From Sphingomonas sp. JC676 (GTDB taxonomy: Bacteria; Pseudomonadota; Alphaproteobacteria; Sphingomonadales; Sphingomonadaceae): a DNA stretch of 64,000 bases. A model generated the notes under the pieces. The model saw only the letters and a list, made by a program, of their open reading frames with translations. It made no database searches and was not told the origin of the DNA. The stretch lies in NCBI RefSeq assembly GCF_014489075.1, contig NZ_JACTGR010000001.1, forward strand, positions 1,116,001-1,180,000, written 5' to 3'. Positions 18,413-42,784 of the stretch are shown piece by piece (positions within the stretch are counted from its first letter, which is position 1; each line of letters opens with the position of its first letter). Made by a program: the position numbers and the translations under genes.

Positions 18413-18762
18413 GCGACACCCCGAACACCGCCTTTAAGGTGCTCACCGCCGATCAGATGACGGCGCTGGAAACTGACGGCGTGTTCGCGGGCGCGCCCAT
18501 CGATCTGGCGGACGGCTATATCCACCTCTCGACCGCTGATCAGCTGGGCGAGACGCTCGACAGGCATTTCGCCGGCCAGAAGAATCTCTGGTTGGCGGCG
18601 GTCGATCTCGAGGTGCTGGGCGATGCGGTGAAATGGGAGCCGTCGCGCGGCGGCCAGCTCTTCCCGCACATCTATGGCGCGCTGCCGCTCGACGCGGTGC
18701 TTGCCTATAGCGAGCTGCACTACGAGCCCGACGGCGCCTTGCGACTGCCCGTCACCGGTTGA
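18409..18762 (+). CDS. DUF952 family protein
   Basis: A 117-residue cytoplasmic protein starting at a GTG that overlaps the gyrA stop (GTGA), so it is probably translationally coupled. The motifs DGYIHLSTADQLGETLDRHFAGQ, LWLAAVDLEVLGDAVKWEPSRGGQLFPHIYGALPLDAV are those of DUF952, a small family with an ADP-ribosyltransferase-like fold; biochemical role is unknown. Its link with gyrA is positional only. Confidence 0.85.
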   Translation: MSDTPNTAFKVLTADQMTALETDGVFAGAPIDLADGYIHLSTADQLGETLDRHFAGQKNLWLAAVDLEVLGDAVKWEPSRGGQLFPHIYGALPLDAVLAYSELHYEPDGALRLPVTG

Positions 18763-18806
18763 ATCCGCACTTGCCAGCGGCTTCTGGCTGGACGAAAGGC
18801 TGCGCG

Positions 18807-19226
18807 ATGATCGGGACTGCCAGCATGCGAAACGGAGGATGGCGGCGCGTTGCGCTGCTCCTCGTCGCGTGCGCATTGCTGTTCCGGATCGCGGTTCCAG
18901 CCGGCTGGATGCCGCAGGCGCATGCGCAGGCACGGGGCGTCACGCTTGCCTGGTGCAGCGGGATGGGCGATGCGGCGCCGGCCGAAGCCAAGGCGCTGAT
19001 CGCCAACGCCATCGGCGCGAAGGAAACGCCCAAGCACAAGCCCTCGTCCGATCAGCCCTGCGCCTTTGCGGCAGCCGCGCATCCGATAGCCCACGCCGAT
19101 CCCGCCCCGCTGCTCGCCCCCTTGGCGCGCGAGGCGGTGGTGACACACCCTGCCCTGCTTCCTTTCCCCGGCCGCGGCCTCGTTGCCCCGCCTCCCTTCG
19201 CCACAGGACCACCGCTCCACGCCTGA
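18807..19226 (+). CDS. DUF2946-type small exported protein
   Basis: A 139-residue protein (MIGTASMRNGGWRRVALLLVACALLFRIAVPAGWMPQ) with one N-terminal hydrophobic segment and a Cys-containing mature part (LAWCSGMG, SSDQPCAF, His-rich HPIAHADP). This layout fits DUF2946, a family often found beside copper or other metal TonB receptors. The start at 18807 has AAAGG about six bases upstream; ATG at 18825 is an alternative. The TonB receptor starts 33 bases after the stop, suggesting one transcription unit. Confidence 0.65.
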   Translation: MIGTASMRNGGWRRVALLLVACALLFRIAVPAGWMPQAHAQARGVTLAWCSGMGDAAPAEAKALIANAIGAKETPKHKPSSDQPCAFAAAAHPIAHADPAPLLAPLAREAVVTHPALLPFPGRGLVAPPPFATGPPLHA

Positions 19227-19259
19227 ACCGGAATCTTCCCGTTTTCAGTCGGAGCACCC

Positions 19260-21566
19260 ATGTCTTTGCCATTGCCACGCCGCAGGTTTCTGCCGCGCGT
19301 TTCGCTTCTCGCACTCGCCACCCTGCTGGCGCTTCCCGCTTACGCCGCGCCCAATGAGGACGAGGATCAGGACGGCAGCCGCAAGCCGGCGATCGTCGTC
19401 ACCGGCGAGCGCAGCCGCGCGACGATCGAGAATTCCCCCTCCACCAGCGCGCGGATCGATGCCGAGCGGATCGATACGACGACCAACGCGGTCAATGTCG
19501 AGGACACGATCAAATATCTGCCGAGCCTGGTCGTGCGGAAGCGCCATATCGGCGACACCCAGGCACCGCTCGCGACGCGCACCTCGGGGCTCGGGTCGAG
19601 CGCGCGCAGCCTGATCTATGCCGACGGGGCGCTGCTCTCGTCGCTGATCGGCAACAACAATACCAGTGCGAGCCCGCGCTGGGGCCTGGTGGCGCCCGAG
19701 GAGATCGAGCGGATCGACATCCTCTACGGACCCTTCTCGGCGGCCTATGCCGGCAACTCGATCGGCGCAGTGGTCAACATCACGACACGACTGCCCGACA
19801 AGCTGGAGGGCACGCTGAGCGCACTGACCAACCTCCAGGATTACGACCAATACGGCACCAAGGCGCTGTACCCGACCTACCAGTTCGCTGGAACGCTGGG
19901 CGACCGCTTCGGGCCGCTCTCATTGTTTGCCGCCGCGACGCATACCGCAAGCAAGGGCCAGCCGCTGAGCTTCGTCACCACCAATCGCCCGGCGGCGACC
20001 GGCGCCGGCGGCAGTCTCACCGACGGCGGCTATGACGCGCTGAACCGCACCGGCACGCCGATCCGGGTTCTGGGCGCGTCGGGGATCGAGACGCAGCATC
20101 AGGATGTGCTCAAACTCAAGGCCGCGCTCGATGTGACCGGCGAGATCCGCGTCACCTATGTCGGCGGGCTTTTCCTCGATGATACCAACGCCGTGGCGGA
20201 GACCTATCTCTCGAACAGCGCCGGGCCGGTCTATTCGGGTTCGCTCAACATCGGCGGCTATCCCTACAACATCGCCGCGAGCGCCTTTTCGGGTGGCGTC
20301 TACACCAGGGACTCGCGGCATTGGTCGCACACGCTTTCGGCGCGCGGCGATACGAATGGGTTGGACTGGGAAGTCATCGGATCGCTCTACGATTTCGACC
20401 GCGACGTGCAGCGCACGCCGAGCGGCGCCCTGCCCGCTGCCAATGCCGGCGGCGCCGGGCAGATCGTCCGGCTCGACGGTACGGGCTGGCGCACGCTCGA
20501 TGCCAAGGCGAACTGGCGGACCGGCACCCAATCGATCAGCGCCGGCGGCCATTGGGATCGCTTCACTTTGTCGAGCAACCGCTACACCACCACCGACTGG
20601 ATCCAGGGTGCCGAAGCGCAGCTGAACCTGGTGTCGCGCGGCAAGACCGAAACCTTCGCGCTCTGGGCGCAGGACGCGATCGATGTGGGGCCGGTCACGC
20701 TCACTTTGGGCGGGCGCTATGAATGGTGGCGGTCGTTTGACGGGTATAATTATTCGCTGAGCCCGGCGCTGGCGGTGACCCAGCCCGAGCGCCACGCGCA
20801 GGGCTTCTCGCCCAAGGCGACGGTCGCGTGGACGCCCGCCGAGAATTGGTCGGTGCGGCTCTCCGCGGGCAAGGCCTATCGCTTTCCGACGGTCGGGGAG
20901 CTCTATCAGGCGGTGACCACCGGCCCGACGATGAGCGTACCCGATCCGACGCTCCGGCCCGAACAGGCGGTGTCCGAGGAGCTGGCGATAGAGCATGCCG
21001 ATCGCCACGGCTCAGTGCGGCTGTCGCTGTTCAACGAAAGCGTCGAGGATGCGCTGATCTCGCAGTCCGCCCCGCTCGTGCCGGGATCGGCGACGCTCTA
21101 CAATTATGTCCAGAATGTCGGGCGCACCCGCGCACGGGGCTTGGAATTCGCGCTCGATCGCCGCGACGTGGTGCCGCGTTTCGATCTCGCGGGCAGTGTG
21201 ACCTACACCGATGCCGAAACGCGCGAGGACGCGGCTTTCCCCGCAGCGGTGGGCAAGATGCTGCCGAGCGTCCCCCGCTGGAAAGCCAGCGCGGTGGCGA
21301 CCTGGCGGCCGGACGACGCCGTCTCGCTTACCGCGGCAGCGCGCTATGCCAGCCGGAACTGGGGCAGCCTCGACAATAGCGACGTGGTCGGGAACACTTG
21401 GCAAGGCTTCTACAAATACCTCGTGATCGACGCGCGCGCGCACTTTCGCGTGAACGAGCATTACAGCTTCGCCGTCGGTGTCGATAACCTCACCAACGAC
21501 AAATACTTCCTGTTCCACCCCTTCCCGCAGCGATCGGTGACGGCGGAAATGACGATGCGACTGTGA
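19260..21566 (+). CDS. TonB-dependent outer membrane receptor
   Basis: A 768-residue receptor with a signal peptide (PRVSLLALATLLALPAYA), a TonB-box-like segment (KPAIVVTGERSRA), a plug domain (VEDTIKYLPSLVVRKRHIG, EEIERIDILYGPFSAAYAGNSIGAVVNITTR) and a long 22-stranded barrel ending in a typical aromatic/Leu end (RSVTAEMTMRL). It takes up a ligand with TonB-ExbBD energy. The DUF2946 neighbour hints at a metal complex, perhaps copper, but nothing in the protein fixes the ligand. GGAG precedes the ATG. Confidence 0.9.
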   Translation: MSLPLPRRRFLPRVSLLALATLLALPAYAAPNEDEDQDGSRKPAIVVTGERSRATIENSPSTSARIDAERIDTTTNAVNVEDTIKYLPSLVVRKRHIGDTQAPLATRTSGLGSSARSLIYADGALLSSLIGNNNTSASPRWGLVAPEEIERIDILYGPFSAAYAGNSIGAVVNITTRLPDKLEGTLSALTNLQDYDQYGTKALYPTYQFAGTLGDRFGPLSLFAAATHTASKGQPLSFVTTNRPAATGAGGSLTDGGYDALNRTGTPIRVLGASGIETQHQDVLKLKAALDVTGEIRVTYVGGLFLDDTNAVAETYLSNSAGPVYSGSLNIGGYPYNIAASAFSGGVYTRDSRHWSHTLSARGDTNGLDWEVIGSLYDFDRDVQRTPSGALPAANAGGAGQIVRLDGTGWRTLDAKANWRTGTQSISAGGHWDRFTLSSNRYTTTDWIQGAEAQLNLVSRGKTETFALWAQDAIDVGPVTLTLGGRYEWWRSFDGYNYSLSPALAVTQPERHAQGFSPKATVAWTPAENWSVRLSAGKAYRFPTVGELYQAVTTGPTMSVPDPTLRPEQAVSEELAIEHADRHGSVRLSLFNESVEDALISQSAPLVPGSATLYNYVQNVGRTRARGLEFALDRRDVVPRFDLAGSVTYTDAETREDAAFPAAVGKMLPSVPRWKASAVATWRPDDAVSLTAAARYASRNWGSLDNSDVVGNTWQGFYKYLVIDARAHFRVNEHYSFAVGVDNLTNDKYFLFHPFPQRSVTAEMTMRL

Positions 21567-21579
21567 GCGCTTGACGGCC

Positions 21580-21607
21580 AAGGCGGGTGCCCTTAAGTGC
21601 CCGCCTT
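21580..21607 (+). terminator. possible terminator hairpin after the TonB receptor
   Basis: AAGGCGGG pairs perfectly with CCCGCCTT around a 12-base loop, 14 bases after the receptor stop. No T run follows, so it is only a candidate; it also sits right before tRNA-Glu. Confidence 0.35.
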
Positions 21608-21618
21608 CCACCGCGCTT

Positions 21619-21693
21619 GGCCCCTTCGTCTAGCGGTTAGGACGTCGCCCTCTCACGGCGAAAACACGAGTTCGATTCTCGTAGGGGTCACCA
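21619..21693 (+). tRNA. tRNA-Glu(CTC), island integration site
   Basis: Complete cloverleaf: acceptor GGCCCCT, D arm with TCTAGCGGTTAGGA, anticodon arm TCGCC-CTCTCAC-GGCGA with anticodon CTC, T arm with GAGTTCGATTCTC, and encoded CCA. The last 14 bases are repeated at 42771-42784, showing that the tRNA 3' end served as attB and was regenerated by the element. Confidence 0.95.
21680..21693 (+). repeat. attL core direct repeat
   Basis: CGTAGGGGTCACCA forms the 3' end of tRNA-Glu and recurs exactly at 42771-42784. The integrase gene begins 164 bases further right. This is the left attachment site of the island. Confidence 0.88.
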
Positions 21694-21806
21694 AAATGCC
21701 TTCCCAAGGCATCCCAGAATGTGCCGTAAATGGCTGTTTTCTGCGGATTTTTGTGGTACAAGCTTCCCAATCGGATCGGCAGAATACCACTCCATACCAG
21801 CAATCT

Positions 21807-21823
21807 GATGGTATTTCTGATGG
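21807..21823 (+). repeat. left arm-type motif, candidate integrase site
   Basis: GATGGTATTTCTGATGG matches the motif at 42689-42705 in 15 of 17 bases. Inverted partial copies (ATACCACTCCATACCAG) lie just to the left. Such TGGTAT-type repeats near both ends of P4-like islands are usually integrase arm sites; this is inference from position and similarity. Confidence 0.5.
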
Positions 21824-21856
21824 CAGCTCGCTGATCGCTCGGATGGAGGTACCATC

Positions 21857-23077
21857 ATGGCGTTGTCGGCTGTGGCGATCAAAGCCGCAGAGAATCGGGA
21901 CACGGCATACAAGCTGAGCGACCGAGACGGGCTATACCTGCTCGTGACGCCGACCGGCGGTCGCTACTGGCGCATGAATTACCGCTATCTCGGCAAGCAG
22001 AAGACGCTGGCGTTCGGCGTCTGGCCGGACACCGGCCTCGCCGACGCGCGAGCCGAGTGCGACGCAGCGCGCAAAGTGCTCGCTCGCGGCGAAGACCCGG
22101 CTGAACGCATGAAGCTCGACCGGATCGCTGCCACGGTCGCGGCCTCGAACAGTTTCAAGGCCGTGGCCGACGAATGGCTGCTAAAGGTCGAGAAGGAAGG
22201 CCGCTCGGCAGTCACGATGAAAAAGCTGCGCTGGCTGCTCACCTTCATCAATGCCTCAATCGGCAAGCGCCCCGTCGCCTCGATCTCGGCACAAGAGCTG
22301 CTGCTGATGTTGCGCAAGATGGAGGGCAAAGGCCGCTACGAGACCGCAAAGCGGCTCCGCAGCACCAGTTCGCAGATCTTCCGGTACGCCATCGCCACGG
22401 CGCGTGCTGATCGTGATGTCGCATCCGACCTGCGCGGCGCCCTGATCGTTCCCAAGCCCGTCCACCGCGCGGCCGTTACGACCGCTACGGAGGCCGGCGA
22501 GCTGCTTCGCACTATCGAAGCGTTCGAGGGGAGTTCAGAGGTACACGCTGCCCTGAGGCTGCTTCCGCACGTATTTGTTCGCCCTGGAGAACTTCGCTTC
22601 GCTGAATGGGCCGATTTCGATCTCGAGAAGGCTGTCTGGACGATACCGCCTCACAAGACGAAAATGCGGCGCGCTCACAGCGTGCCGCTTTCGACCCAGG
22701 CTCTCGCGATCGTCCGCTCCATCGAGCACGATGCAGAGTACAGCCAATACTTGTTCCCGTCACGGACCTCGGTTGACCGACCGATGTCGGAGAACACCAT
22801 CAACGCGGCGCTACGCCGCCTCGGCTACTCGCAGGACAAGATGACCGGCCATGGCTTCCGCGCAATGGCTGCAACCCTGCTTAACGAGATGGGCTTGTGG
22901 CACGCTGACGCGATCGAGCGCCAATTGGCGCACTGCGACGCTAATGCCGTCCGGCGCGCCTATACCCGCGGCGAATATTGGGATGAGCGGGTTCGCATGA
23001 TGCAACACTGGTCGGATCATCTCGACTTCCTGCGAGATGGGGCAAAGGTGCTCACAGGCAACTTCGCTCAAGTCTAA
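21857..23077 (+). CDS. P4-type tyrosine integrase (DUF4102 N-terminus)
   Basis: A 406-residue site-specific recombinase. The N-terminal DUF4102 arm-binding domain reads KLSDRDGLYLLVTPTGGRYWRMNYRYLGKQKTLAFGVWPD. A SAM-like core-binding domain follows (FKAVADEWLLKVEKEGRS). The catalytic domain shows Arg242 (RPGEL), Lys near 267-269, HGFR with His332 and Arg335, His359 (LAHCD) and the nucleophile Tyr369 (RRAYTR). It sits 164 bases inside attL and points into the island, as in P4-family islands using tRNA 3' ends. It should catalyse integration and, with an excisionase, excision. Confidence 0.95.
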   Translation: MALSAVAIKAAENRDTAYKLSDRDGLYLLVTPTGGRYWRMNYRYLGKQKTLAFGVWPDTGLADARAECDAARKVLARGEDPAERMKLDRIAATVAASNSFKAVADEWLLKVEKEGRSAVTMKKLRWLLTFINASIGKRPVASISAQELLLMLRKMEGKGRYETAKRLRSTSSQIFRYAIATARADRDVASDLRGALIVPKPVHRAAVTTATEAGELLRTIEAFEGSSEVHAALRLLPHVFVRPGELRFAEWADFDLEKAVWTIPPHKTKMRRAHSVPLSTQALAIVRSIEHDAEYSQYLFPSRTSVDRPMSENTINAALRRLGYSQDKMTGHGFRAMAATLLNEMGLWHADAIERQLAHCDANAVRRAYTRGEYWDERVRMMQHWSDHLDFLRDGAKVLTGNFAQV

Positions 23078-23904: not shown

Positions 23905-25095
23905 CTATCCAGCCGAAGCCGACCCCGCGCCGGACGCGGTCGACCGCGCGTCCCAGGTTGCGACTAGGAAGGTCGCCATCGAGCCAGAGAGGTTGACCGC
24001 CAACTCGGCATGACGCGCGGCGGGCTTGGCGCGCTTGCGACCGCCACCATGCGCGTCGCCGAGCTTGTTGCGCAGCGCGCCTAGCGATTCCACCACCGAC
24101 TGGCAGCTGCCGAGGATCTGCTTGAACACCTGCTCACTATGATCGTCTGGGGCGAGCTTAAGCGCCTTGGCGAGCTTGCGGTAAAGTGCGGGAAGGTCGT
24201 CCTGATCCGACGCCGACTCGCCGAGTTCGTCGAGCAGCCAGCGGCAGACATCCTCAAGCAAGGTGCGCGCGAGCGTAATGGCCCCCGCCGGATCGTGCGC
24301 GCGTCGATCCAGCGCGGCGCTCCAGCGGCCATGAATTAGGTCGGGATCGAAGCGTTGGAGCGCCGAGGAGATCGCCGCATCGGCGGGCGAGCCAACAGCG
24401 TGCGCGGCGATCGTGAAGACAGCGCTGCCCGAAATGCTGCCCGTGCGGGCGAGGCGGTAGCCGTCATGCTGGAGATGCGCATTGATCCGCTCGACCCGGG
24501 CCTTCTGTATACCGTCGTCGATCGCGGTCGGATGAACGCTGGCCTCGAGGAAGCGAAACAGCAGAGCGCGCGACGCCGTCATCAGCCCAAGCCGCTCGAG
24601 CAGCTCGCGATTGGTCCAGTCGTCGTTGCGACGCATGTGCTGGAAGATGTCGTCCTTCAGCGAGCGAAAGCCAATGTCGTCGAAGCTGACATTATTCTGG
24701 TTGCCGGGCATCGCGGCGATCGGCCAGATCGTCTCGAGAAACTCGATCTCGTCATATTCGGTGCAAAGCGACTCGCTGTCGAACTCTGCGAGCAGCCGTC
24801 GGCGCGTTAGCTCTGTGATCGCGGGCGTGCCCGCCTCGGACGCCTTCGCGACCAGCTCGGCCAGGCCAAAGTCGTTCTCCTCCTCAAGCAATAGCTTCGC
24901 AATCGCGACGAGGCGGTCGCCCGCTACCGACGCCATCCGTGCGCTGGCGTAGCGGAACTTGCTGCGCATCGCCTCCGATTCGTCGCCCGGCTCCAGCCCG
25001 AGGCGCGCGCAGAGCGCGGGGACGTTGTACGCTTTCTCGCGCGCAATCACGTCGGCAAGACTGTTTCGAAGCTCGTTGAGCAGACCTCGGTTCAT
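23905..25095 (-). CDS. abortive infection protein, AbiJ-NTD3 plus Abi_C type
   Basis: A 396-residue soluble protein. The middle matches the AbiJ N-terminal domain 3 pattern (ITELTRRRLLAEFDSESL, FLETIWPIAAMPG, HMRRNDDWTNRELLERLGL, LFRFLEASVHP). The C-terminal third matches Abi_C (AITLARTLLEDVCRWLLDELGES, LPALYRKLAKALKLAPDDHSEQVFKQILGSCQSVVESLGALRNKLGDAHG). RNKLGDAH is a HEPN-type Arg-x-His motif, suggesting an RNase that shuts down the infected cell. It is transcribed alone, opposite to its neighbours. Confidence 0.78.
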   Translation of the reverse strand: MNRGLLNELRNSLADVIAREKAYNVPALCARLGLEPGDESEAMRSKFRYASARMASVAGDRLVAIAKLLLEEENDFGLAELVAKASEAGTPAITELTRRRLLAEFDSESLCTEYDEIEFLETIWPIAAMPGNQNNVSFDDIGFRSLKDDIFQHMRRNDDWTNRELLERLGLMTASRALLFRFLEASVHPTAIDDGIQKARVERINAHLQHDGYRLARTGSISGSAVFTIAAHAVGSPADAAISSALQRFDPDLIHGRWSAALDRRAHDPAGAITLARTLLEDVCRWLLDELGESASDQDDLPALYRKLAKALKLAPDDHSEQVFKQILGSCQSVVESLGALRNKLGDAHGGGRKRAKPAARHAELAVNLSGSMATFLVATWDARSTASGAGSASAG

Positions 25096-25975: not shown

Positions 25976-26118
25976 TCTCGCCTGCCATACTAATCATGGA
26001 TTTTAAGGCCGCAGAGGAGCGCAATTCGCTCGATATACTTTGATTGAATCTGGAAGTCCTGGAGTATCCTGTAATCCGAGCATCGTCGAAGGAGAGCCCC
26101 ATCAGTTCCGTCCGAACC

Positions 26119-27987
26119 ATGTCCGCCGCTCAGTTTGCGACAGCCTTCGCCCTACGACCAAATCTGGTGGCATGGTTTCTCGGCGCCGGCGCGTCGGCCG
26201 CATCCGGGATTCCCACCGGCTATGCTATGATCCGCGACTTCAAGGCCCAAATCTTCTGCCGTGAGACGAACCTTTCCAAGCGGGAAATCGATACCGCGGA
26301 CTCCATCTGGATCGAGCGGATCGATGATTTCTTTCGCCGAACCTCGCTGCTTCCGCCGGACGGAGATCCCACGGAATATGCCGCCGCCTTTGAGGCGGTC
26401 TATCCCGAGCCCCGCCACCGTCGACAATATATCGCGGATGCGATCGCAAAGGGCACGCCATGCTTCGGGCACAAGGTGCTTGCGAGCCTGATGGCTGCGG
26501 GCAATGTCGACTGCGTTTTCACGACCAATTTCGACCCGCTTGCAGAAGATGCCGCGCTTGCCGCGAACGCAATCCTGCCCGCCGCCGATCAGAAACGGCC
26601 CACGGTGGCGGCGATCGATTCCGCCGATCGCGCCATGCGTTGCCTCGATGAATCCGACTGGCCGTTAATTGCAAAGCTCCATGGGGATTATCAGTCGATC
26701 GCGATTAAGAATACCGGATCGGAGCTGGAGCAGCAGGATGCCCGTATGCGGCACGTGCTGGTCGAGGCCGGCAAGCGGTTCGGAATGCTGGTCGTAGGTT
26801 ATAGCGGGCGCGATGCCTCGATCCTAGAGGCGCTGAATGACGTCCTAGCTGCGCCATCTCCGTTCCCGAACGGACTCTACTGGGTTGCCGCATCAGCGAG
26901 CCGCCTGCTTCCCGCCGTCGCCGAATTCCTGGATCGCGCGAAGGCGGCTGGAGTCGATGTTTCGGTTGTCGAATGCACGACGTTCGACGAGCTGGTCGCC
27001 GAGATTATAAAGACAACGGATCTGCCGCGGGCGCTCTACGAAAACGTGATGGCTGGGCGACCTACGCCACGCCTCGTACCCGTTCAAATTCTGAATGCCA
27101 AAGCCCGGGCATTTCCGGTGCTGCGCTATTCGGCGATACTGCTCCAATCGATGCCGACAGCGGCGAGGCGCATCAGGCTGAACCAATCGACCACGTCGGC
27201 AGAAGTGCGCGAGATCTTCAAGGCGAAGGGCTATCGAGCGACGGCAGCCGCGCTGGGGCGGGAGCTGGCGGTGTTCGGGCGGGACCAAGAAATCCTGGAC
27301 GCCTTGGCTCCGCTCGGCCCATCGCTCGCTGGAACGATCGATCTCGACCCGGCCGCCGACAGCTGGGCCATGGGCTTGCTCTATGATACGCTCGTGCGGT
27401 CTCTGGCCCGACAGCGCCCGCTCATTCCGCGCTACAGGCGTTCAGGTCATTCGCTCGTCGTCGCCGCACCGCGCGAAGGCGATGATCCTGAGCGAACGCG
27501 GCGCCAGCAACAGACCCTCTCTCGGATGCGTGAAGCTTATGGGACCAATCTCTTCGGCGCGGTGCCCAACCTTGGCTTCCCCTTTCAGGAGGGTGTCCAC
27601 ATCAAGCTCGAACAGGTCGACGGGAGATGGTGGTGCGGCTTCGAGCCCTACACCTTCGTCCAGCTACCGCGACACGAGCCCCCCCGACCACAAGGCGCCG
27701 AGGATTTGGTCGCCGACCAGGCCCCAGCTGAAATGGGTATGCAGGCCGAGCGCCGAGGTGATCCCGCCGGTGATTGGCGGCGCGAACGCTGGGCTCCGCG
27801 TTATAACAAAAATTGGGCGAGCATTATTGGAGCCTGGGCCCAGCTTCTAACCGAAGCTGGAGGCTCCACTCGGAGCGCCTTCGGTCTTGAGGAGGGCGCC
27901 GGTCTCGATGCCGTGTTCAAGGTGTCGCCCGTCACAGGGTATAGCCGCCCGTCGCATCACCATGCCTACTTCGACAGGAGCAAATGA
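26119..27987 (+). CDS. SIR2-APAZ protein of a short-Argonaute (SPARSA-type) system
   Basis: A 622-residue protein. The N-terminal SIR2 NADase domain shows the NAD loop FLGAGASAASGIPTG (about 20-34), TTNFD with Asn137, KLHGD with His188 and GYSGRD (227-232). The C-terminal half lacks other enzyme motifs and, from position and partner, is the APAZ domain that pairs with a short Argonaute. In such systems guide-directed recognition of invader nucleic acid triggers NAD+ depletion and cell death. The Argonaute gene overlaps its stop (ATGA). The start is uncertain: ATG 26119 opens the SIR2 domain, but the best ribosome site (AAGGAG, 26089-26094) fits an ATC at 26101, and the frame is open to a TTG at 26044. 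Confidence 0.88.
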   Translation: MSAAQFATAFALRPNLVAWFLGAGASAASGIPTGYAMIRDFKAQIFCRETNLSKREIDTADSIWIERIDDFFRRTSLLPPDGDPTEYAAAFEAVYPEPRHRRQYIADAIAKGTPCFGHKVLASLMAAGNVDCVFTTNFDPLAEDAALAANAILPAADQKRPTVAAIDSADRAMRCLDESDWPLIAKLHGDYQSIAIKNTGSELEQQDARMRHVLVEAGKRFGMLVVGYSGRDASILEALNDVLAAPSPFPNGLYWVAASASRLLPAVAEFLDRAKAAGVDVSVVECTTFDELVAEIIKTTDLPRALYENVMAGRPTPRLVPVQILNAKARAFPVLRYSAILLQSMPTAARRIRLNQSTTSAEVREIFKAKGYRATAAALGRELAVFGRDQEILDALAPLGPSLAGTIDLDPAADSWAMGLLYDTLVRSLARQRPLIPRYRRSGHSLVVAAPREGDDPERTRRQQQTLSRMREAYGTNLFGAVPNLGFPFQEGVHIKLEQVDGRWWCGFEPYTFVQLPRHEPPRPQGAEDLVADQAPAEMGMQAERRGDPAGDWRRERWAPRYNKNWASIIGAWAQLLTEAGGSTRSAFGLEEGAGLDAVFKVSPVTGYSRPSHHHAYFDRSK

Positions 27988-29435
27988 TGGCGAACCCAGC
28001 CCTTAGCGAGCTGCCGCCATTCACGCTCCTGGACGAGCCGGACCTGTCCTTTTCGCCATCCGACGCGACCCAAGTCGATGTGCACCCGCTACGGGGGCTG
28101 GTGAATTACGGTCCATATTCGATGGGCTCCTTCAGCGGCTATACCTCTCGTGTGCGCATCGCAACGGTCGGCCCGGAGAGTGCCTTCCATCGTCGCGGTG
28201 ACCTGATGAAGCTGTTGCGCAACGTGCATAGGCCTTCCGACCGATCGGAATATGTGCCGGAATATCCTGGTTTCGAGCGCCTGTTCCGCGTGGCACTCGA
28301 GGCCGCGCCCGCGAGTGCGCACATCAAGTGGCCGGACCGCCTCGACCAACTACCGGGCGATGGCGACGCGCAGCACCGCCTCTACCTTGCCATGGATGCC
28401 GCGCTTCGGCGCCTCGACGCAGTGCGCAATGAATTCGATGTCGTGCTCGTCCATTTTCCCGACAACTGGGACACCGCGACACGCGGAAAATTCTTCGACG
28501 CGCATGACGTGCTGAAGGCCCTGGGCGCCAAGTATAACATTCCAACCCAGGTCCTGAACGACCGCGTCTTCACCTTCAGCTACAAGGCGTCGCTTGCGTG
28601 GCGTCTCTCGACCGCATTGTATGTGAAGGCTGCAGGCACGCCATGGAAGCTGGCGCCGCTGAAGGGCGTGCCGACCGATACCGCCTATATCGGGTTGGCC
28701 TATGCCCTGCGCGGCGATCAGCAAGACGCGCATTATGTAACTTGCTGTTCGCAGGTTTTCGACATGGACGGCGGAGGTATGCAGTTCGTCGCGTTCGAGG
28801 CGCGGGACCCGGTGGCCGATGTCGCCGAAGCCCGCAGGAACCCCTTTCTCAGCCGCGACGACATGCGCGCGGTGCTCGCCCGCAGCCTGGAACTCTATCA
28901 AGGGCGCAACGGTGGCAACCTGCCGAAGCGCATGGTCATTCACAAGACGACGGCTTTTAAGGAGGGCGAAATAGAGGGCGCATTCGACGCGCTTGCCGGC
29001 GTTCCGGAAATAGAGTGCGTCGAGGTGAGTTCGGCGTCGTGCTGGCGGGGGGTCTGGCTCATAAAGTCAGGCGTGGAAAAACCGCCGTCGCGGCCGTCGG
29101 GCTTCCCCGTCCCGCGCGGCACGATGGTTGTCCGCACAGGCAATTCTGCCCTGGTGTGGGTGGCGGGCAATGCTCCCGAGGTCTCGACCAAGGGCGATTA
29201 CTATCAGGGTAAAAAGAGCATCCCGAGGCCGCTGCAGCTGATCCGCCACGCCGGTAGCGGGCCGCTCGAGCTGACAGCCCATGAGGCGTTGGCGCTCACT
29301 AAAATGGATTGGAACAACGACGCGCTTTACGACCCCGTGCCGGTCAGCATCCGCTATTCGCAAAAACTAGCTCGCACGATTGCGAACGTCCCGGATCTGC
29401 CTCGAAACGTCTATCCGTATCGCCTCTTCATGTAG
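27984..29435 (+). CDS. short prokaryotic Argonaute (MID-PIWI)
   Basis: A 483-residue short Argonaute with MID and PIWI but no N or PAZ domain. The MID guide-pocket region reads YNIPTQVLNDRVFTFSYKASLAWRLSTALYVKAAGTPWKL. The PIWI part begins DTAYIGLAYALRG, where the first catalytic Asp of the DEDX tetrad is replaced (YIGLAY), and RMVIHKTTAF has Thr where the second Asp would be, so it should bind but not cut targets. That is standard for short Argonautes, which signal to a partner effector, here the SIR2-APAZ protein encoded just upstream with a four-base overlap and AGGAG before the ATG. Confidence 0.9.
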   Translation: MMANPALSELPPFTLLDEPDLSFSPSDATQVDVHPLRGLVNYGPYSMGSFSGYTSRVRIATVGPESAFHRRGDLMKLLRNVHRPSDRSEYVPEYPGFERLFRVALEAAPASAHIKWPDRLDQLPGDGDAQHRLYLAMDAALRRLDAVRNEFDVVLVHFPDNWDTATRGKFFDAHDVLKALGAKYNIPTQVLNDRVFTFSYKASLAWRLSTALYVKAAGTPWKLAPLKGVPTDTAYIGLAYALRGDQQDAHYVTCCSQVFDMDGGGMQFVAFEARDPVADVAEARRNPFLSRDDMRAVLARSLELYQGRNGGNLPKRMVIHKTTAFKEGEIEGAFDALAGVPEIECVEVSSASCWRGVWLIKSGVEKPPSRPSGFPVPRGTMVVRTGNSALVWVAGNAPEVSTKGDYYQGKKSIPRPLQLIRHAGSGPLELTAHEALALTKMDWNNDALYDPVPVSIRYSQKLARTIANVPDLPRNVYPYRLFM

Positions 29436-29548
29436 CTGCTCCAGCGCACTCACTTGGCTGCTAGGCTGTGGATCGGCGTCGCCGCTACCGCCGGCCGGAT
29501 CGGAATTTCCGGTTGCCATCCGCCGCATCGAGATTAAGTCTCCGATTA

Positions 29549-29673
29549 GGCTCGCGGACAGATTTTTTGTCGCGCTTCGCGACACGTGAAAAGAATGTGC
29601 GGGAGAATTGCTCCTGCGGTCCATTCGGGCAATCCCTATGGGTCTTTCGACTGCGAAGGAGTGTCCGCGAGCC
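29549..29673 (+). ncRNA. retron msr-msd RNA, Ec67-like
   Basis: A perfect 12-base inverted repeat, GGCTCGCGGACA at 29549-29560 (a1) and its complement at 29662-29673 (a2), encloses 101 bases. G29561 right after a1 is the candidate branching guanosine. Inside are msr hairpins TGTCGCG-CTT-CGCGACA (29568-29584) and GCGGGAG-AATTG-CTCCTGC (29599-29617), then msd stems 29618-29644 (with inner GGG-CAAT-CCC) and CTTTCG-ACTG-CGAAGG (29644-29659). The start ACAGATTT and the end GCGAAGGAGTGYC resemble what I remember of retron Ec67. The RT gene starts 22 bases after a2, the usual retron layout. msDNA would begin near TCCTTCGCAG. Confidence 0.88.
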
Positions 29674-29695
29674 AACGGACCTACGGGCGGGGATT

Positions 29696-30952
29696 GTGAA
29701 ACGGATCGACGAACTCAAGCTGGCGACGTCGCTTTCCGATGTCGCGCTGCTGCTGGGATTTCAACCGAAACCCTTCGCATGGGTAATCTATAAGCAACCA
29801 GCCAAATACAGCGTTTTCGAGATTCCGAAATCGCGTGGCGGGATGCGGGTTATCAAGGCGCCCGAACCGAAACTGAAAGCCGTGCAAGCCCGACTTGCCG
29901 AGTTGCTTCAGGACTGCATCGCCGACATCAACGAAGCGCGATCTCAGACCGAGAAGCTTTCTCACGGCTTTCGCCGGGGGCATTCGATTATCACCAATGC
30001 CTATCAGCATCGCAGCCGCCGCTTCGTCTTCAACGTCGATCTCGCCGATTTCTTCGGGACCATCAACTTCGGTCGCGTGCGCGGCTTCTTAATGACGAAC
30101 AAGCACTTCGCACTGCATGAACGGGCCGCTACCGTGCTCGCGCATATCGTGTGCGACGACAACAGCTTGCCACAAGGCGCACCAACCTCACCCGTCGTGT
30201 CCAACCTTATCGCCCATATCCTCGACGTGCGCCTTGCCAAGCTTTCGCGCCGATTTGGGCTCTACTACACGCGCTACGCTGATGACCTGACGTTCTCGAC
30301 CAACAGCCGCACATTCGCGCCTGAGATAGCGATCAATGATGGCGCGGGCGGTTGGGCTGCGGGGCCCGCATTGATTAAAGCGATCCAGCGTTCCGGGTTC
30401 GCACTCAACCCAAAAAAGACTAGGATGCAACTGCGCCAGTCCCGTCAGGATGTGACCGGTCTGGTGGTGAACGAGAAGGTCAACATCCGCTCCGAATATT
30501 ATCGCGACGCGCGAGCCAAGTGCGATCGCCTCTTCAAGACAGGGAAATACCAGACGAAGCACCTCCTGCGGAAAGAGGACGGCACGTTCGCCATCGAGGA
30601 GTTGGATGGTACCCTTGACCAGCTCGAAGGTACGCTCAGTTTCATCGATAGCGTTAAGCGCCACAAGCAGACGATTGGTCGCGATCACAAGCGTTCTGGT
30701 GCCGAACGGCTGTACAGAAGCTTCCTTCTGTACCACCATTTCTATGCGTCGCAGATGCCGGTCATTCTTTGCGAAGGGAAGACGGACAATATCTACGTCC
30801 GATGTGCGGTTCAGGCCTTCGTCGCCGACTATGCAAAGTGGCCGTGGAGAAGGAAAATGGGGTTGAACTCAAGGTACGGCTGTTCAACTATTCAGACCAC
30901 ACAAAGCGCCTGCTCGGTATCGCTGGCGGATCAGGTCACTTTAATGGCCTGA
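29696..30952 (+). CDS. retron reverse transcriptase with start of a TOPRIM domain
   Basis: A 418-residue frame from GTG at 29696 (GGGG six bases upstream). Retron RT motifs are clear: VDLADFF with Asp115, SLPQGAPTSPVVSNLI, YTRYADDLTF with YADD at 194-197, and the retron-typical VTG at 253-255. The RT copies the msd part of the RNA encoded just upstream. After a helical linker a TOPRIM domain begins (PVILCEGKTDNIYVRCAV, catalytic Glu360) but this frame leaves it after about YAK380 and runs 38 unrelated residues to a stop. The domain continues in the -1 frame, so the intact product would be a ~568-aa RT-TOPRIM fusion, near Ec67 RT in size. Confidence 0.85.
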   Translation: MKRIDELKLATSLSDVALLLGFQPKPFAWVIYKQPAKYSVFEIPKSRGGMRVIKAPEPKLKAVQARLAELLQDCIADINEARSQTEKLSHGFRRGHSIITNAYQHRSRRFVFNVDLADFFGTINFGRVRGFLMTNKHFALHERAATVLAHIVCDDNSLPQGAPTSPVVSNLIAHILDVRLAKLSRRFGLYYTRYADDLTFSTNSRTFAPEIAINDGAGGWAAGPALIKAIQRSGFALNPKKTRMQLRQSRQDVTGLVVNEKVNIRSEYYRDARAKCDRLFKTGKYQTKHLLRKEDGTFAIEELDGTLDQLEGTLSFIDSVKRHKQTIGRDHKRSGAERLYRSFLLYHHFYASQMPVILCEGKTDNIYVRCAVQAFVADYAKWPWRRKMGLNSRYGCSTIQTTQSACSVSLADQVTLMA

Positions 30953-31401
30953 TCAACGATTACCGCAAGAATCTGAAGTCGTTTTCCGCTCCCCACGCCG
31001 AACGTTTCCCCGTGATCCTTCTGATTGATAACGATAGCGGCGCGAAGGGCATCTACGAATGTGTGAAGTCAACCACCAAGAAGGCCTGCGATGGTAAGCA
31101 ACCTTTCTACTACCTAGGTGAGAACCTCTATCTCGTGCCAACGCCATTGGGCGCTGCGGATGCGCCAACGATGATCGAGGATTTTCTTCCTTCGAAATGG
31201 CGGGACGAGCAACTCGGCGGTAAGTCTCTGAACTTTGGAAAAAACATCGACATCACAAAAGAATACGGAAAGGCGCTCTTCGCTGAGCATGTGATCAAAA
31301 AGAACCGCAAAGACGTGGACTTCACCGCGATGCGTTCAATTCTCGACAGAATTGTCGGCGTGATCGATGACTACGCAGCGATGATGGCGGCAGATCTATA
31401 G
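30835..31401 (+). pseudogene. TOPRIM C-terminal part of the retron RT, in the -1 frame
   Basis: From about 30835 the -1 frame reads KVAVEKENGVELKVRLFNYSDHTKRLLGIAGGSGHFN and then VILLIDNDSGAKGIYECV, where the DxD at 31027-31035 is the metal-binding half of a TOPRIM domain. It ends at 31401. It continues the domain whose Glu motif lies at the end of the preceding frame. No good independent start or ribosome site is present (the frame opens at a TTG at 30769). Either one base was lost near 30833-30840, the sequence has an error, or the ribosome shifts -1 at GCA-AAG. It is marked as a broken piece because the default reading does not produce it. Confidence 0.7.
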
Positions 31402-39544: not shown

Positions 39545-40048
39545 ATGCGCGCTGACATGTTCAAGATCATTGTCGAGCGTCCCCGCTGGGGCGCTGGGCA
39601 TGCGCCTCCCGTAAAACTCAAGAAGGACAAGAACGACTTCAAGCAAATCGGCCTCAAGCGGCACGCGAAGGAGCAAGCCGCGTACACGAAATCGCTCAAC
39701 GAGAATCTCGCGCCGCTCGTCCGCTTCATCCAGCGGCGGGTGGGGCGGCGCTGGGACGATGTGTTCAGCGAAATCTGCGAGCATCTCGACACTGGCAGCA
39801 CCGTGAAGATGCATGTCCGCCAGCATCTGCGCGATTTCGTGCTGTTCGGGGTCTCGCGCGGACGGCACGGCGAATTGCTCCGCGAGGGGCACATTCTGCG
39901 TCCCGACCGCCGCAATTGCCGTGGCCGTGAATTCTATGTCGATCCCCGTGACGGGGTGTTGAAGGACCGCGTGTGGTTCTGGCGCGATCAGGGCGAGATC
40001 GTCGCGCCGGGCAAACGGCACCTCGGATGGAAGGATGCTGCACGATGA
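39545..40048 (+). CDS. hypothetical protein coupled to rtcB-prfH
   Basis: A 167-residue basic protein, MRADMFKIIVERPRWGAGHAPPVKLKKDKNDFKQIGLKRH at the start, with a strong GAGGGAGG site before the ATG. The middle RRVGRRWDDVFSEICEHLDTGSTVKMHVRQHLRDFV looks conserved. It is small, Lys/Arg-rich and His-rich, which would suit RNA or ribosome binding. No enzyme motif is recognised. It overlaps rtcB by four bases, so it belongs to the same RNA-repair operon; I recall similar proteins next to rtcB-prfH elsewhere but no known function. Confidence 0.75.
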   Translation: MRADMFKIIVERPRWGAGHAPPVKLKKDKNDFKQIGLKRHAKEQAAYTKSLNENLAPLVRFIQRRVGRRWDDVFSEICEHLDTGSTVKMHVRQHLRDFVLFGVSRGRHGELLREGHILRPDRRNCRGREFYVDPRDGVLKDRVWFWRDQGEIVAPGKRHLGWKDAAR

Positions 40049-41115
40049 CCGGCGCAACCATCCACATCGTCGCCTCGCCCGAGAGCTGGATCGAGCAGGC
40101 GGCCGTGGACCAGCTCCACCAGACGGCGCGGCTCGAAGGCATCGACCGCATCGTCGGCCTGCCAGACCTCCACGCCGGCCGCGGCATCGCGGTGGGCGCG
40201 GCATTCTGGTCGCCCAGCCATGTCTATCCGCACCTTGTCGGCAGCGACATCGGCTGCGGGATGGGCTTGTGGCGCGTGGCCATACCGCTGCGCAAGTTCC
40301 GGCTGGACGCGGCCGAGCGCAAGCTGCGGGGCTTGGAGGAGCCTTGGCTGGGCGATCATGCCGCGCGCCTGGCCGAGGCCGGACTATCTCCCGACCTAGT
40401 CGGTGAAGCGCTCGGCACGATCGGCGGTGGCAACCATTTCGCCGAACTGCTTCGGGTCGAGACGCTGCACGGGGATACGGAAGTCGATCCAGCGGCGCTC
40501 TACCTGATGGTGCACAGCGGTTCGCGCGGGCTGGGCCACGCAATCCTCGAGCGGCATCTGGCCCGGCACAATGTCTTGGGTCTGATCGCCGGCGAGGAAG
40601 CGTGCTCCCGCTATCTGGCCGCGCATGACGATGCGATGGCCTGGGCCGTGCTCAACCGCGAACTGATCGCCGAGCGCTTCCTCGATCGGCTCGGCACCAC
40701 TGGCGAACGGATGCTCGACATTTGCCACAACAGCGTCACGCCGCATCGCGGCGGCTGGCTGCACCGCAAGGGCGCGGCACCGGCGGACAACGGGCTGGTG
40801 GTGGTTCCCGGATCGCGCGGAGAGATGACCTATCTCGTCCGTCCCCGGCTGGAGCGGGCGGACGAGGCGCTGCATTCGCTGGCCCACGGCGCTGGCCGCA
40901 AATGGAGCCGCAGCGAGGCTAAGGACAAGCTTGTCCGACGCTTTAGCATCGCCGATCTGGAGCGCACCAAGCTCGGGAGTCGCGTGATCTGCGAGGAGGC
41001 GCCACAGGCGTACAAGGATATCCACCAAGTCGTGCGCGATCTTGAGCAGGCGGGGCTGATCGACCTGATCGCCACCCTACGCCCGCTCCTTACCTATAAG
41101 ACGAGGCGCGCATGA
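40045..41115 (+). CDS. rtcB: RNA-splicing ligase RtcB
   Basis: A 356-residue RNA ligase that joins 2',3'-cyclic-phosphate (or 3'-phosphate) and 5'-OH ends using GTP and Mn2+. Conserved metal and nucleotide residues are visible: LPDLHAGRGIAVGAA, GSDIGCGM (Mn-binding Cys), GTIGGGNHFAEL (Asn-His), HSGSRGLGH, ICHNSVTPH, and the guanylated His in LAHGAGRKWSRSEA. It is shorter than the tRNA-type RtcB (about 400), typical of the copy encoded with prfH. It overlaps its neighbours by four bases on both sides. Confidence 0.95.
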   Translation: MTGATIHIVASPESWIEQAAVDQLHQTARLEGIDRIVGLPDLHAGRGIAVGAAFWSPSHVYPHLVGSDIGCGMGLWRVAIPLRKFRLDAAERKLRGLEEPWLGDHAARLAEAGLSPDLVGEALGTIGGGNHFAELLRVETLHGDTEVDPAALYLMVHSGSRGLGHAILERHLARHNVLGLIAGEEACSRYLAAHDDAMAWAVLNRELIAERFLDRLGTTGERMLDICHNSVTPHRGGWLHRKGAAPADNGLVVVPGSRGEMTYLVRPRLERADEALHSLAHGAGRKWSRSEAKDKLVRRFSIADLERTKLGSRVICEEAPQAYKDIHQVVRDLEQAGLIDLIATLRPLLTYKTRRA

Positions 41116-41729
41116 CCGAAATCATTCTGCATCTGTCCTCTGGGCAGGGACCGCGGGAATGCGAATGGGTGGTTACCGAATTGGCACATGCCCTTTGCCG
41201 CGAAGGTACGGCGGCGGGGCTGGCATGTGATCTGGTCGAGCCAATAACCGGGCCCGTCGCATCGGCGCTGCTGCGTCTATCGGGGGCGGAGGCCGAAGGG
41301 TTCGCCTCGGCTTGTATCGGCACGGTTCGTTGGGTCGGCACCAGTCCGTTCCGACCGCTGCACAAGCGCCACAACTGGTTTGTCGGGGTGCAACGCATTT
41401 CGGCGGATGCGGAGACGCCTGAGCTGCGCGACGAAGACATTCGCTATCAGACGCTCCGCGCCTCGGGACCGGGCGGACAGCATGTCAACAAGACCGACAG
41501 CGCCGTCCGCGCGACCCATCTGCCCACCGGTCTCGCGACGCTATCGCAGGATCAACGTTCGCAACTCGCCAACAAGAAAATCGCACGGCTGAAGCTGGCG
41601 ATGCTGCTCGACGATCGGCGCCGCGCGGACGAGGCCGGAGGCAAGCGGGCACTGTGGGACCAGAACCGCGAAATCGAACGTGGCAACGCGGTGCGGACGT
41701 ACGAGGGACAGCGGTTCCGGCGTCGCTAG
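41112..41729 (+). CDS. prfH: peptide chain release factor homolog PrfH
   Basis: A 205-residue class I release-factor-like protein. The peptidyl-hydrolysis motif is ASGPGGQHVNKTDSAVRATHLPTG, with GGQ at about residue 124. It lacks the codon-recognition domain of RF1/RF2. PrfH proteins encoded with RtcB are reported to release peptides from ribosomes whose 16S RNA was cut in the decoding centre so that RtcB can reseal the RNA. The four-base overlap with rtcB supports joint function. Confidence 0.93.
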   Translation: MTEIILHLSSGQGPRECEWVVTELAHALCREGTAAGLACDLVEPITGPVASALLRLSGAEAEGFASACIGTVRWVGTSPFRPLHKRHNWFVGVQRISADAETPELRDEDIRYQTLRASGPGGQHVNKTDSAVRATHLPTGLATLSQDQRSQLANKKIARLKLAMLLDDRRRADEAGGKRALWDQNREIERGNAVRTYEGQRFRRR

Positions 41730-42770: not shown

Positions 42771-42784
42771 CGTAGGGGTCACCA
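42771..42784 (+). repeat. attR core direct repeat
   Basis: CGTAGGGGTCACCA, identical to the tRNA-Glu 3' end at 21680-21693 but not preceded by a tRNA here. It marks the right end of the island. Confidence 0.88.

Follow-up and report, generated by a model that had tools for sequence, protein, structure and literature searches.

A type I-C (Ec67/Eco2-like) retron RNA with defined limits, followed by a frameshifted RT-Toprim gene, in Sphingomonas sp. JC676

The window analysed here, a stretch of 64,000 nucleotides from Sphingomonas sp. JC676, contains a retron inside what is presumed to be a tRNA-Glu mobile island (21619-42784). A tRNA-Glu gene (21619-21693) is followed by an integrase gene (21857-23077), and a 14-base copy of the tRNA-Glu 3′ end is found at 42771-42784. 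Within these limits a MobA/MobL relaxase gene lies after the retron, and TraD is encoded as well. Upstream of the retron are genes for a SIR2-type protein (26044-27987) and a short Argonaute (27984-29435), recognised by PADLOC as Aga_SIR2-PNTD1-PNTD2 and pAgo_I. We take this pair, which ends 113 bases before the first repeat arm (a1) of the retron RNA, to be SPARSA-like. To look for a link between this pair and the retron, loci L001-L032 were searched by tblastn; the Argonaute was matched in L016 alone, which is the window's own copy, and SIR2 gave no match; many of these loci hold 1.5-4 kb of upstream sequence, so that both searches are partial tests. Among papers on retrons with SPARSA or Sphingomonas, judged by their titles and the first lines of their abstracts, none concerns this locus. 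The same presumed island carries an AbiJ-like abortive-infection protein (Pfam AbiJ_NTD3, Abi_C) on the reverse strand at 23905-25095, and an RtcB RNA ligase gene (39973-41115) paired with an RF-1-domain gene (41112-41729), presumably PrfH-like.

A second genome of the genus, G1125 (locus L072), shares the tRNA and has an integrase and a relaxase related to those of the window, with 81% identity over the stretch 18724-23060 for the former and 71% for the latter. In place of the AbiJ gene, the SIR2/Argonaute pair and the retron of the window it has different sequence, about 2.7 kb long, and the RNA model described below finds no match in this genome. A search of 60 further genomes of the genus for an empty island site gave no good match to the right-hand flank (best 71% over 377 bases).

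All parts of the retron lie on the forward strand. The RNA is bounded by two arms, a1 (GGCTCGCGGACA, 29549-29560) and a2 (29662-29673), which are perfect complements over 12 bp. A G directly follows a1 (G29561), and the reverse transcriptase (RT) ORF starts with a GTG at 29696, 22 bases past a2. All three features had been read from the sequence in a first-pass annotation, and they are exact. A scan of 29380-29720 yielded no sigma-70-type promoter-like site. Folding of the 125-nt RNA yields −61.5 kcal/mol, compared to a mean of −41.77 for shuffled sequences (z −5.03, with none of 200 shuffles reaching this value). Folded on their own, the predicted msr and the predicted msd DNA are unremarkable relative to their shuffles (z −1.01 with 34 of 200 as low, and z −1.46 with 17 of 200, respectively), so the fold signal comes mainly from the pairing of a1 with a2.

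Covariation was then examined in an alignment of 24 loci, which leaves aside L015 (its upstream part repeats that of L014), L016, L018 and L027-L032; L084 and L085 likewise play no part in the analysis. An automatic scan for a1/a2 placed 21 of 26 sequences; motifs served to position L004, L007, L009 and L012, L009 being moved by one base before alignment, and L018 was left unplaced. In L018 the locus ends within the RNA (16.2 bits, E 0.091), which was found complete when genome G164 was searched. Over a1/a2 (12 pairs) and the first hairpin (29568-29584, 7 bp with a 3-nt loop), 96.9% of cells are paired, against 26.9 to 44.7% in a control where the partners were slid out of register. Changes on both sides were observed in 17 of these 19 pairs (11 of 12 in a1/a2, and 6 of 7 in the hairpin, of which 97.0% of cells are paired), and none of 500 shuffles reached any of five measures. 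With no structure supplied, RNAalifold recovered from the same 24 loci both a1/a2 and the first hairpin, along with two short pairs close to a2. The compensatory pairing and the a1/a2 repeat, which the first-pass annotation had left to be looked for in homologues, are both present there.

That annotation had also described two msr hairpins, of which the second probably belongs elsewhere. The second (29599-29617), seen in the fold of the 125 nt, has 56.7% of cells paired in register; 6 of 500 shuffles are as high, its covariation score is reached by 3 of 500, its number of changed pairs by 223 and its pair types by 201. It is therefore weakly kept, and since Retron-Eco2 has one msr hairpin according to PMC12405507, this second hairpin most likely lies inside the msd.

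In that paper Retron-Eco2 (Ec67) has a single msr stem-loop, branches at rG15 and carries an msd of 67 bases, and we used this plan, transferred through L021 in the alignment, to place the parts of the window's RNA. G29561 is the predicted branching G, counterpart of rG15; the position holds a G in 23 of the 24 aligned loci and an A in L009. The msr would extend over 29561-29596, with a 3′ edge uncertain by 1-2 nt, judging from the register with L021 and the Eco2 numbering rG15-rU51. By homology to the Eco2 msd, the msd template would cover 29597-29660 (about 64 nt, compared to 67 in Eco2), and it is bordered on the a2 side by a GAGT that is invariant (24 of 24 loci). DNA synthesis would start opposite A29660 and end at 29596-29598, giving an msDNA of about 63-65 nt. 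This predicted start fits the family, and agrees with the earlier suggestion of a DNA starting near TCCTTCGCAG. In L009 (5002-5138), a cyanobacterial msr-msd, the branching G is replaced by an A and the other signature parts are kept; this A, from a MAG, could be a sequence error.

The first-pass annotation had proposed a search with a type I-C covariance model as a check. To avoid circularity, we realigned 20 loci, leaving out the window together with the three relatives closest to it, and built such a model from them. It matched the window at 29548-29674 with 96.2 bits (E 1.2e-19), as its sole match up to E 10, and this was also the single match in the genome (150 of 164 candidates scored). 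The limits of the RNA, said earlier to be exactly definable, are therefore recovered to within one base on each side. Rfam 15 gives no match here, neither at gathering score nor at E 10, and this lack of any matching Rfam family would be in keeping with chance hairpins and no retron RNA at all, an idea made scarcely credible by the covariation over 24 loci together with the match of an independent model.

The model was next applied to other genomes. Sixteen of them have an RT match; three (G131, G184 and G287, that is loci L017, L020 and L019) had fed the model, leaving 13 to be tested. The RNA was found in 9 of these 13 (7 of 7 plus 2 of 6), with the start of the RT match a short way downstream of it in 8 of them. 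In the ninth, G164 (L018, L080), the RT match lies about 1.4 kb downstream of the RNA and its first 40 residues are absent. The spacing of msr-msd and RT in G164 would suit a retron divided by an insertion, and its RNA score equals that of G1174 (83.9 bits). Four genomes were missed by the model: the match in G593 is 31% identical, G1043 and G1082 match the RT half only, and in G854 only 95 bases of the available sequence lie beyond the match, so that the upstream part may fall outside it. Under stricter filters, 3 of 61 genomes of the genus contain the RNA, namely the window's own, G1173 (by its coordinates identical to L002) and G1174. Among viral contigs, 10 stretches matched peptide patterns, none encoding a relative, and the 6 stretches that matched a 16-base pattern (L027-L032) had neither an RT match nor an RNA-model match.

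The gene downstream of the RNA belongs to the family of Ec67-type retrons, which are known as anti-phage systems of bacteria. The RT ORF (29696-30952, 418 aa) scores 536.7 bits against NCBIfam NF038237, the retron Ec67 fusion family (cut-off 450), and 539.3 bits against RT-Toprim_I-C, its best PADLOC profile, from which the name type I-C is taken. Among proteins of solved structure its best relative is that of Retron Ec67, chain 9lm3 (E 5.9e-87), and the catalytic YADD motif is present at 30275-30286. NCBIfam, PADLOC, the covariation and the covariance model thus agree with the earlier assignment to the Ec67 type. A homologue search scored 7998 candidates, of which 7948 passed; in the best 120 of these 7948, 114 match both the RT and the Toprim halves and 6 the RT half only, including the window's own protein, P0001. 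At E 1e-60, an RT match is found in 5 of 397 genomes of the window's family, its own counted. E. coli plasmid relatives among the matches listed (H12 and H22, Ec67-like or unannotated) are 40-42% identical. Much closer are Sphingomonas hankookensis (L001), S. azotifigens (L002) and Acetobacter oeni (L003), with RTs 76-82% identical to the window's and nearly identical msr-msd sequences. The occurrence of an Ec67-like retron in a sphingomonad, previously considered worth attention, is hence unsurprising, as two named Sphingomonas species carry near-identical RNAs.

Unlike the RT-Toprim genes of L001, L002 and L003, each in one open frame, that of the window is interrupted, a point absent from the first-pass annotation. 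At 30838/30839 the assembly has one base fewer than these three relatives, and the protein match splits there into two frames. Residues 1-381 of the RT ORF are homologous to the family and are followed by a 37-residue out-of-frame tail. The remaining Toprim domain (30838-31401) is encoded in the −1 frame of the RT ORF, within an ORF at 30769-31401, where it scores 162.1 bits against PADLOC RT-Toprim_I-C and matches positions 380-572 of the NF038237 profile. The first Toprim motif, EGKTD (30773-30787), with the counterparts of Eco2 E374 and D378, is in the RT frame, and the DND motif (31027-31035), with the counterpart of D460/D462, is in the other. Neither ORF therefore contains a whole Toprim site. 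Alanine at E374, D378, D460 and D462 abolishes Eco2 defence, as reported in PMC12405507. The window's locus is like Retron-Eco2 in RT family, a1/a2, G after a1, single msr hairpin and the two Toprim motifs; it is unlike it in that the fused gene is frameshifted between these motifs. With an RT of the family bearing YADD and the full RNA signature upstream, and a Toprim sequence that is present and frameshifted rather than in one open frame, we file the locus as a broken member of type I-C by descent, and not as a complete system.

There is no sign of decay in the Toprim half: pN/pS is 0.200 between the window and L001 and 0.149 between the window and L002, compared to 0.222 between L001 and L002. 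As this half still looks constrained, the break is either recent or a sequence error. In the latter case the retron would be an ordinary working type I-C system, and the Toprim half is indeed stop-free to its normal end; moreover, the broken protein has no second copy among the 120 homologues listed. We nevertheless consider a sequencing or assembly error unlikely, because the gap lies outside any long homopolymer, the genome is given as 100% complete with the window on a 1.5 Mb contig, and the neighbouring SIR2, Argonaute, AbiJ, integrase and relaxase genes are all open.

A real break could still be bypassed if ribosomes slipped there, producing a little full-length RT-Toprim, in which case the deletion would tune the effector down. 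The break does fall at an A-AAG in the RT frame, a tetramer able to support weak −1 slipping, and both frames are open over 30769-30952. This reading is nonetheless very improbable, since no slippery X XXY YYZ heptamer is found in the zero frame over 30650-30945, the three relatives are in frame, and L010 is broken at another site. The search for a programmed frameshift thus gave it no support.

Frame changes or stops were found in 5 of 37 other loci (the window's two copies excluded), namely L010, L015, L022, L037 and L038. They lie at differing places, the site in L010 being unlike the window's. L010 and L015 come from MAGs, L037 and L038 from genomes of 3 and 50 contigs, and L022 from a complete plasmid record; some of these breaks could thus be sequence errors, several being from MAGs or multi-contig genomes. 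Two further type I-C genes, P0073 and P0097, end soon after the first Toprim motif. Counting the five loci and these two genes, effector loss is perhaps frequent among type I-C genes. A search for standalone Toprim proteins gave 8 matches, and we do not claim a separate family of them, as 7 of the 8 come from contigs no longer than 2,040 bases.

Our preferred reading, to which we give a probability of about 0.75, is that the locus consists of a type I-C msr-msd followed by a frameshifted RT-Toprim gene, so that the strain likely still makes branched msDNA and would lack a working Toprim effector. On the Eco2 plan, a1 would pair with a2, and the RT, docked on the one msr hairpin, would prime DNA from the 2′-OH of G29561 opposite A29660 and copy the msd back to about 29597, yielding about 64 nt. 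As proposed for Retron-Eco2, the fused Toprim RNase of intact relatives would be held inactive by the msDNA-RT complex for as long as no phage product attacks the msDNA. Phage deletion mutants are described in PMC11555353 as infecting bacteria with retron-Eco2 more weakly. In the window, the system as sequenced is probably without an effector, the RT-Toprim gene being frameshifted. A bolder version, which we put forward as a tentative possibility, is that of a naturally disarmed retron, where RNA and RT have been kept and msDNA is still made after the toxic half was cut off; such an antitoxin-like remnant could act by titrating the triggers that phages supply, or it could protect its host against another retron of this type that is still intact.

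We conclude that the retron RNA of the window is ordinary for its family and exactly delimited, and that its effector is probably disarmed. The locus supplies a type I-C donor RNA of alphaproteobacterial origin whose limits have been tested, and the analysis a covariance model for the type I-C RNA class, for which Rfam 15 had no match in the window even at E 10. If the break is real, the locus would allow a natural experiment on whether msDNA can be made by an RT half that lacks the effector.
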